Of a stretch of 32,301 nucleotides of DNA, positions 8,847 through 29,838 are shown piece after piece (position 1 is the first letter of the stretch; each line of letters opens with the position of its first letter). The translations under genes and the position numbers were made by a program. The DNA comes from Syntrophobacterales bacterium (GTDB taxonomy: Bacteria; Desulfobacterota; Syntrophia; Syntrophales; UBA2192), in assembly GCA_018053845.1 (NCBI GenBank), contig JAGPKU010000023.1, forward strand, positions 1 to 32,301, written 5' to 3'. The notes under the pieces were generated by a model, which ran no database searches, was not told where the DNA came from, and saw nothing but the letters and a program-made list of their open reading frames with translations.

Positions 8847-8920
8847 GCCGTTCATCGAGCGCGGCAAGGGCATATCTCCATATTTCGCGCGCCTGAACGA
8901 TGTCGAAGAGGAGACGTTCC

Positions 8921-9448
8921 ATGAAGCTCAAGGTCGGCCGGAAAGCCCCCGATTTCACCCTGCCGAGCCATCTCGACCGTAAGGTGACCCTCTCGAAGTG
9001 CCTCGGCAAGGGGCCCGTCGTCATCGCGTTCTTTCCCCTGGCCTGGACGCCGGTCTGAACGAATCAGCTTCCCTCGTACGAGGCCGAACTGGCCCGGTTC
9101 GGGAAGCTCAATGCCCAGGTCCTGGGCATCAGCGTCGACCATGTCCCCTGCCTGAAGGCCTGGGCGGAGAGCCTCGGCGGAATCTCCTTCCCGCTGCTGA
9201 GCGATTTCTGCCCCCAGGGCGCCGTCGCGAAGAAATACGGCGTGAAGAGAAGGGAGGGGTTCTCGGAGCGGGCGATCTTCGTTCTCGACAGGTTCGGGAT
9301 CATCCGCTACATCGACATCCACGACATCGGCGACCGGCCCAAGAACAAGGTCCTGTTCGCCGAGCTCAAGAAGGTGATCCGGCTGGAAAGCGAGCTGGAG
9401 AAGGTCGCATCAGAACAAAAGACCCGGGCGGGAAAGGCCCGCAAGTGA
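8921..9448 (+). CDS. Selenocysteine-containing peroxiredoxin (in-frame TGA = Sec46)
   Basis: A 175-residue thioredoxin-fold peroxidase read through one TGA at 9056-9058. Before it the frame gives KAPDFTLPSHLDRKVTLS and VVIAFFPLAWTPV; after it, TNQLPSYEAELARF, VLGISVDHVPCLKAW and YGVKRREGFSERAIFVLD. This is one uninterrupted peroxiredoxin, and the TGA falls exactly on the peroxidatic cysteine of the TPVCT motif, so the residue is predicted to be selenocysteine (U46). The surrounding T43 and P44 of the active site are kept. C100 (DHVPCLKAW) is a candidate resolving or structural Cys. A stem-loop of the right placement follows (9066-9108). ATG 8921 has AGGAG 8 nt upstream. It should reduce peroxides with a thiol donor in the cytoplasm. 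A pseudogene is unlikely because the rest is perfectly conserved. Confidence 0.93.
9066..9108 (+). promoter_or_regulatory. Candidate bacterial SECIS element of the peroxiredoxin
   Basis: Outer stem AGCTTC (9066-9071) with GAAGCT (9103-9108); inner stem CCGAAC (9084-9089) with GTTCGG (9097-9102); apical loop TGGCCCG (9090-9096). A 12-nt 5' bulge (9072-9083) is itself a perfect palindrome. The apical loop starts 31 nt after the TGA, within the 16-37 nt usual for bacterial SECIS. Confidence 0.72.
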
Positions 9449-9459
9449 ACGCGACCCTT

Positions 9460-9501
9460 TTCACCCTTCGCGCCCCCGGCACAACCGGAGCGAAGGGTGA
9501 A
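9460..9501 (+). terminator. Hairpin after the peroxiredoxin gene
   Basis: Perfect 12-bp stem TTCACCCTTCGC (9460-9471) with GCGAAGGGTGAA (9490-9501) and an 18-nt loop, 12 nt after the stop. No T-run follows, so termination efficiency is uncertain. Confidence 0.6.
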
Positions 9502-9717
9502 GCATGTTGAGAGCAGACCGCTCGAGCAGGGTTCTCAAAGGCAGGGTGCGACGCGTTTTCGTGTACCGCTCTTTGCGAAGCGGAGCGTCCGCGGCGCGGG
9601 TTTTCGCGACTGCAGCGCAACAGGCGTCGGCGCGGTCTGAAACCGCATAGTGGCCGAAGGAATTCCGATCGAGCAAGAAGTGACATCCGTAGGAATAATA
9701 CAGAGTTCGTGCAACCC

Positions 9718-28179: not shown

Positions 28180-29838
28180 CTATTTTCTCTTGCCTTTCTT
28201 CTCTTTCCTCAGGTCGGCGGCCATCCTGCGGATTTCCGTGATGTCCGAGACCATCTTGCTCCAGCCGTACCACAGGGCATAGTCGGGGTTGGCGTGGAAG
28301 GTGCCCTGGAAGGTCCGCATCCGGTGCTCCAGGAACATGAGGTAGAGCTTCTGCTCGATCGACGTCGGGGCGTCGTGGAACGCCAGCAGGTCCGGGTACG
28401 CGTAGGCGTAGTGCCCGGGCTTGGCGAGGATTCGGTCCCGGTAAAGACCCGCCACGATCTCGACGGCCTCGGCGAGCAGCCGGTCCGCCTCGCGGATCAT
28501 CATGTCGCCCTTCTCGAGCTCGCCCCTTGCGAAGTGGGGTGAATGGCACTGGCGGCAGTTGGCAAGCATCCGGTCCCGCTCCCTCTGCCAGTCCTCTTGG
28601 GTCGTGCGGAAGACGTCCAGATCTTTGAGAACGCCGAGACGGGCCGTCGGCTTCCCGGACGGGTCCAGGACCCCCAGGCCCTTGAGAATCGTCGTCCGGT
28701 CGGCGGCCCACTTGGGGTCGTCCGGCATGGGGAGCCTCACGGCTACGAACCCCCAGGCCGTGCGGACGCCGTGGTGACCGCCCGTCATGTGGCAGCTCTG
28801 GCAGGTGGGGGCCGATGCGCTCTCGGGCAGAACGCCCATCTGCTTGAGGGAGTTGCGCACCCCGTGCTTGGAGGAGGAGTACATCTCCCACTGGGGGTGG
28901 TCGATGCCCATGTGGCAGGTCTGACAGGCCTGGGGCTGCAGGGCCTCCTTCTTCGAGAAGAGGTGCCGGGTGTGGCAGGAATCGCAGGAGGCGACCCCGA
29001 ACTGGCCGCCCCGCTTGCGCAGTTCCTTGATCTCGACATCCGTCTTGATCCCGATCTTGTGGCAGCCGCCGCAGCCCTTCATGCCGTCGATCATCGCCAT
29101 GGGCTGCATGTGGAAGGTGGGCATGGCCTTCATGGCGTCCCAGGCCTTGGCGTGCTTGCCGTCCTTGAACTGCTTGACCTGGGTGCCGTGGCAGAAGGCG
29201 CAGCGCTCGGGCGTCGGGATTTCGGCCAGGGCGACCGTCTCGGGGGAGAAGTGCTTGTCTCCGTGGCAGACGGCGCAGTCGACACCCTTCTGGCTGTGTT
29301 TGCTGAGTTTCCAGTCGCCGACCACGCCCGGGGTCATCGCCGTGTGGCAGTCGACGCAATGCTTGGCCGAAGTGATGACCTTTTTCTCGGTGGGAAAACC
29401 GCTCTTGGCCCAGTCGTTCCAGCCGCCCTCCAGGGCGTAGACCTTCGTGTACCCCCGCTTGTAAAGTTCGACCGCCGCCCGGGCAGCCGTGTACTCCTTC
29501 GGTCAGGCTCAGTAGAGGATGTAGGTGGCATCCTTCTTCGGGTATTTCTTGAAGAACTCTTCGAGGTTTTCGGCATCGACGAACACCGCCCCCGGGATCT
29601 TCTTGTCGCTCTGCTCGTACTGCTTGATGTAGCGGCCATCGATGATGACCACGTCGGGCTTCCCGAGCATCGCCTTTACGGCTTCCTTCGAAAGGCGCGG
29701 CACCTGCTCGACGGTCGTGGGCATCGCCGAGTAGGCGGCCAGGGCGATGAGCATCAGGATCACCGCAAGGGTTGCAATGAGAAGGGGCTTCGCTTTCATT
29801 TCCTCGACCGCTCCGGCTCTGGGGTGAAAGGTGGGCAT
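28180..29838 (-). CDS. Membrane-anchored rhodanese (UAU) fused to octaheme HAO-like cytochrome c; two Sec codons
   Basis: A 552-residue predicted selenoprotein if two TGAs are read. A hydrophobic anchor (residues 18-37) is followed by a rhodanese domain (about 42-146): [16 protein letters not shown], then [18 protein letters not shown] with TGA codons 110 and 112 (29511-29509 and 29505-29503), and [11 protein letters not shown]. The TGAs fall exactly where this rhodanese type has YCxCPxExT. The same frame continues into eight CxxCH sites, at 161, 188, 213, 256, 285, 305, 346 and 428, and into HAO-family blocks [18 protein letters not shown] and [16 protein letters not shown]. Heme attachment means the whole protein is periplasmic. 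The reaction is unknown; persulfide or polysulfide chemistry is one guess. AAGGA 8 nt upstream supports ATG 29838; ATG 29799 is an alternative. Confidence 0.9.
29464..29496 (-). promoter_or_regulatory. Candidate SECIS serving the two TGA codons
   Basis: Minus strand: ACGGCTGCCC (29490-29481) can pair with GGGCGGCGGT (29480-29471) with one mismatch, leaving a 4-6 nt apical loop. A lower stem GAGT (29496-29493) with ACTT (29467-29464) extends it. The apical loop is about 20-25 nt after the second TGA and 26-31 nt after the first, inside the usual bacterial window for both. Folding was by hand. Confidence 0.58.

Follow-up and report, generated by a model that had tools for sequence, protein, structure and literature searches.

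The window, i.e. the whole stretch of DNA analysed here (32,301 nt), belongs to a MAG of 2.65 Mb. Its frame 8921-9448 is interrupted only once, by a TGA which corresponds to residue 46, and ends with the codon TGA at 9446-9448. In Pfam, the AhpC-TSA domain matches residues 5-131 of the read-through product (E 1.8e-35) and runs across the in-frame TGA. The active-site motif is PLAWTPVU, a form of PxxxTxxU, in which P39, T43 and position 46 are invariant in the alignment. The first-pass annotation had described an otherwise uninterrupted peroxiredoxin (Prx) in which TGA replaces the Cys of TPVC, and the frame, the Pfam match and the alignment all agree with it. The features of the locus are presented in Table 1. 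The hairpin beyond the terminal stop has a folding energy of about -27 kcal/mol (z -5) and has no counterpart elsewhere in the genome; in three relatives a similar hairpin is followed by a T run, and it is probably a degenerate intrinsic terminator.

Table 1. Predicted features of the peroxiredoxin locus, in positions of the window
Feature	Position	Strand	Basis
Likely ribosome binding site AAGAGGAG	8906..8913	+	Purine-rich, 7 nt 5' of the ATG; genus orthologues have GGAG-type sites there too
AhpE-type selenoperoxiredoxin gene, 175 residues including Sec46	8921..9448	+	Reading frame, Pfam, homologues, fold match, purifying selection
TGA (UGA) codon of Sec46, peroxidatic position	9056..9058	+	Aligned to the invariant peroxidatic Cys; TGA in all family orthologues
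bSECIS-like stem-loop, apical loop GAACU at 9086-9090, 27 nt past the UGA	9066..9108	+	Folding, covariation, low synonymous divergence in codons 47-64
12-nt palindrome CCTCGTACGAGG	9072..9083	.	Chance-level; overlaps lower stem, internal loop and upper stem
Cys77 codon, candidate resolving Cys, start of helix 75-84	9149..9151	+	Conservation; helix from model
Strong hairpin past the terminal stop, probably a degenerate intrinsic terminator	9459..9502	+	Folding; relatives with T run

Concerning the type of peroxiredoxin, the protein combines the AhpC-TSA fold with the PxxxTxxC/U motif of the superfamily. The nearest solved sequence is AhpE of Mycobacterium tuberculosis (Rv2238c, PDB 1xxu and 4x0x; E 1.1e-26), which is also the best fold match of the AlphaFold model (pLDDT 93.5; TM 0.93 by target length). 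The two proteins differ at the two residues of interest: M. tuberculosis AhpE has Cys in place of Sec, and Thr is aligned at the position of Cys77. The active site of the AhpE group is described as PxAF(T/S)xxC, with an Ala-Phe dyad and Val or Ile before the peroxidatic Cys (PMC5302317); in a comparison of motif letters only, PLAWTPVU keeps the Ala and the Val and has Trp for Phe. None of the curated NCBIfam models reaches its own cut-off on this protein. PrxU (NF040737), a member of the same superfamily, was rejected as an identity, since the protein scores 60.7 bits where 270 are required, and its model is longer (233 residues vs 175). Based on its sequence and its modelled fold, the protein is of the AhpE type and not PrxU.

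Selenocysteine-containing peroxiredoxins with TxxU (PF00578) are a long-known family of bacterial selenoproteins, listed in Syntrophobacter, Syntrophus, Anaeromyxobacter and further taxa (PMC1794560, PMC13188914), as the first-pass annotation had stated in saying that the class is not new. The listed proteins share with this gene the Sec at the peroxidatic position and the motif PxxxTxxU; the lists treat the peroxiredoxins as one family, whereas the present copy is AhpE-type. The gene thus adds a member to the known family. Neither an AhpE-type Sec branch nor a fusion of a Sec peroxiredoxin with glutaredoxin was found described in the literature searched, a search of limited coverage. The genome also contains other peroxiredoxins: two with Cys (L087, which is common in the order, and L088) and an AhpC-like one, also with Cys (L089). 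A second TGA-bearing peroxiredoxin (L086, G000:C138:20700-22300) reads FYPGDFTFV-TGA-ATEISAV, and similar matches with one TGA are found throughout the order.

The stem-loop downstream of the UGA consists of a lower stem (AGCUUCCC/GGGAAGCU), an internal loop, an upper stem (GGCC/GGCC) and the apical loop, with an MFE of -22.7 kcal/mol and a z of -3.1 against dinucleotide shuffles. Bacterial SECIS elements are characterised by a loop of 3-9 nt with a G in its first two positions, an upper stem of 4-16 bp, a spacing of 16-37 nt and an MFE of -7.5 kcal/mol or lower (PMC13188914). Here the loop has 5 nt with G first, the stem 4 bp, the spacing falls within the range and the MFE is well under the limit; the loop starts with GA rather than the favoured GG or GU, which counts against the Sec explanation. 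Compared with synonymous recodings, the stretch 3' of the TGA in this gene has a z of -2.4. Among the homologues, the fold 3' of this position has a mean z of -2.58 in 36 distinct TGA forms and of -0.14 in 26 Cys forms, relative to recodings that preserve the protein. Two Chloroflexota MAGs (L062 and L065) contain TGT (Cys) inside the Sec clade; they are a natural reversion from Sec to Cys, and the fold is lost in both (z -0.02 and -0.35).

When this structure is counted on the alignment, 79.3% of the cells are paired (71.0 in shuffles) and the covariation is 0.250 (0.142 in shuffles), values reached in 0/500 shuffles each, which are counts and not probabilities as the sequences are related. 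Sliding the stem partners strongly reduces both pairing and covariation. In the genus orthologues, dS falls to 0.22 over the stem-loop codons, compared with 0.59 upstream and 0.47 downstream of them. RNAalifold gave no consensus structure on the homologue alignment, probably because the registers of the upper stem vary; a scan of the window with Rfam gave no match, hence the stem-loop bears no RNA family label. Judging from these sequence comparisons, the stem-loop is under selection in the TGA forms only. The first-pass annotation is thereby upheld as to the bSECIS-like element, but not as to its further statement that the 5' bulge is a perfect 12-nt palindrome and an uncommon decoration. The perfect palindrome exists, but it is not the bulge itself (within it only 9074-9078 form an unpaired run in the MFE fold), such palindromes occur at chance level (18 of 12 bases in the window, 15.4 +/- 3.5 expected), and CCTCGTACGAGG is preserved whole in no more than 7 of 36 homologues, two from Myxococcota and five among the seven members of the family. 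It was rejected as a special element on its count and poor conservation, and is a by-product of the Ser-Tyr-Glu codons and the stem.

The machinery for Sec insertion is found in the same genome, where the matches to tRNA-Sec, SelA, SelB and SelD all exceed the curated cut-offs. The tRNA-Sec has the anticodon TCA (76 bits) and SelA scores 605 bits. The absence of selB had been named beforehand as evidence against recoding; the outcome is the opposite, as SelB is present with 366.8 bits (cut-off 242). SelD (L090, G000:C63:1316-2239) contains an in-frame TGA of its own and is probably itself a selenoprotein. Six further genomes of the family contain the gene, all with TGA at the same codon (77-90% identity), and a scan of named genomes found it also in about 30 distant homologues from Chloroflexota, Actinomycetota, Myxococcota (Anaeromyxobacter) and one Acidobacteriota genome. 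At the level of sequence, the locus has what is expected of a bacterial selenoprotein: the UGA falls on a redox position, the coding sequence to either side of it is constrained, and SelA, SelB, SelC (tRNA-Sec) and SelD are all in the genome. Both Sec at the peroxidatic position, on the homologue alignment and the retention of TGA across the family and other phyla, and active recoding of UGA, on the machinery, the TGA conservation and the stem-loop, had been proposed in the first-pass annotation and are supported here.

We are highly confident that the gene encodes an AhpE-type peroxiredoxin whose UGA 46 is decoded as Sec through SelB and the stem-loop, with Sec46 as the predicted peroxidase residue; this confidence does not extend to the role of Cys77 or to the reductant. 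The gene, the UGA position, the machinery, the selected stem-loop and the conservation were computed, and the peroxidase chemistry is drawn from knowledge of the family. On reaching codon 46, the ribosome would meet SelB with Sec-tRNA bound to the stem-loop just 3' of it, and Sec would be inserted. According to established peroxiredoxin chemistry, the selenolate of Sec46 would attack the peroxide and be converted to a selenenic acid, with release of water or alcohol. Cys77 would probably resolve this acid to an internal selenenylsulfide, and a separate protein, thioredoxin or glutaredoxin-like, would then reduce the Sec46-Cys77 bond; for this assignment of the reductant the chances are about even.

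Cys77 is a candidate resolving residue on the basis of its distribution in the sequences, and we consider this role about equally likely to be right or wrong. Of the 42 TGA-bearing loci, four of which are second copies of the same contigs, 38 have it, with or without a fused glutaredoxin, as do 2 of 26 Cys forms, namely the two revertants; nearly all Cys paralogues lack it. The alternative, which concerns the Cys77 step alone and not Sec decoding, is a 1-Cys-type (here 1-Sec) peroxidase like M. tuberculosis AhpE, in which Cys77 is structural and the reductant of Sec46, either a low-molecular-weight thiol or a partner protein, acts on it directly. The nearest solved relatives are titled 1-Cys peroxiredoxins, and Cys77 lies away from the alpha-3 position, which we take to be that of the resolving cysteines in Tpx. 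To our knowledge, no resolving position like Cys77 is known for AhpE. Cys77 is also missing from the basal Sec forms, those of Myxococcota and Acidobacteriota, so a resolving role would not be universal. We regard direct reduction as a serious possibility, if somewhat short of an even chance; the retention of Cys77 in the TGA-bearing loci, fused or not, and its near absence from the Cys paralogues argue against it.

With respect to the codon itself, the TGA could really end the protein of a gene that has decayed or been cut short, or it could be misread from TGC or TGT, as the window is one MAG contig and either codon is a single base away. This is very improbable: seven family genomes and about 30 distant homologues share the TGA, the stem-loop is selected in the TGA forms only, and purifying selection acts on both sides of the TGA (dN/dS 0.085 on the 5' and 0.13 on the 3' side), and because it persists past the TGA the gene is neither a pseudogene nor a read error. 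An altered genetic code, in which UGA is read as another amino acid such as Trp, could draw on the other in-frame TGAs of the window, but is hardly credible, since the TGAs examined fall on redox Cys positions in a genome with Sec machinery, the end codon of the gene is TGA (TAA or TGA in genus relatives), so that TGA also stops, and Trp at 46 would abolish the peroxidatic residue.

Nearly all Chloroflexota and Actinomycetota homologues (L052-L078, L081) carry a C-terminal glutaredoxin-like domain with the motif YCxxWCxxC, and the three fusions tested match PF00462; the domain is diverged in L072 and L076, and the sequence of L083 ends before that region. These fusions are 57-71% identical to the Syntrophales copy and share with it the TGA at the same codon (the two Cys revertants excepted), Cys77 and the stem-loop, whereas the glutaredoxin domain is theirs and is absent from the present copy. 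In the Chloroflexota relatives the fused domain would probably carry out the final reduction, which points to a reductant of the glutaredoxin or thioredoxin type. The genome also has a separate, distant match resembling glutaredoxin (L097, 32% identity).

Among the genomes searched within the order, the TGA form is seen only in the window's own family, and the tree puts this family among Chloroflexota and Actinomycetota sequences. This patchy occurrence and the tree placement suggest that the gene may have moved between phyla. As to whether this lineage lost the glutaredoxin domain or others gained it, the free tree nests the lineage inside the fused forms, but the AU test does not reject a single clade of all fused forms (p 0.229). 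That the AhpE-type Sec branch with a Sec46-Cys77 selenenylsulfide began as a Chloroflexota/Actinomycetota glutaredoxin fusion, entered one Syntrophales family, shed the domain and now uses a separate reductant is a tentative history which we consider unlikely in its entirety.

Elsewhere in the window, a gene on the minus strand (28180-29838) encodes a rhodanese domain fused to a multiheme cytochrome and contains two TGAs, in the motif LYUAU (residues 110 and 112). The gene scores above the cut-off of NF041203 (rhodanese_LYCAU); the name of that model shows Cys and Sec, whereas two Sec are predicted in this gene. Its orthologues have two TGAs in 8/8 family genomes searched, which adds support to the dual-Sec reading of the cytochrome; the first-pass annotation had taken the Sec peroxiredoxin to back that reading. 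Active recoding in this genome is well supported independently of the rhodanese/cytochrome gene.

For the peroxiredoxin family, the Sec clade with its two Cys revertants, both without the stem-loop, provides a clean natural control of how the bSECIS functions, and the likely type of reductant is indicated by the glutaredoxin domain to which the relatives are fused. For this Syntrophales lineage, UGA recoding is firmly supported, which makes other nearby in-frame UGAs, such as those of the rhodanese/cytochrome gene, credible.
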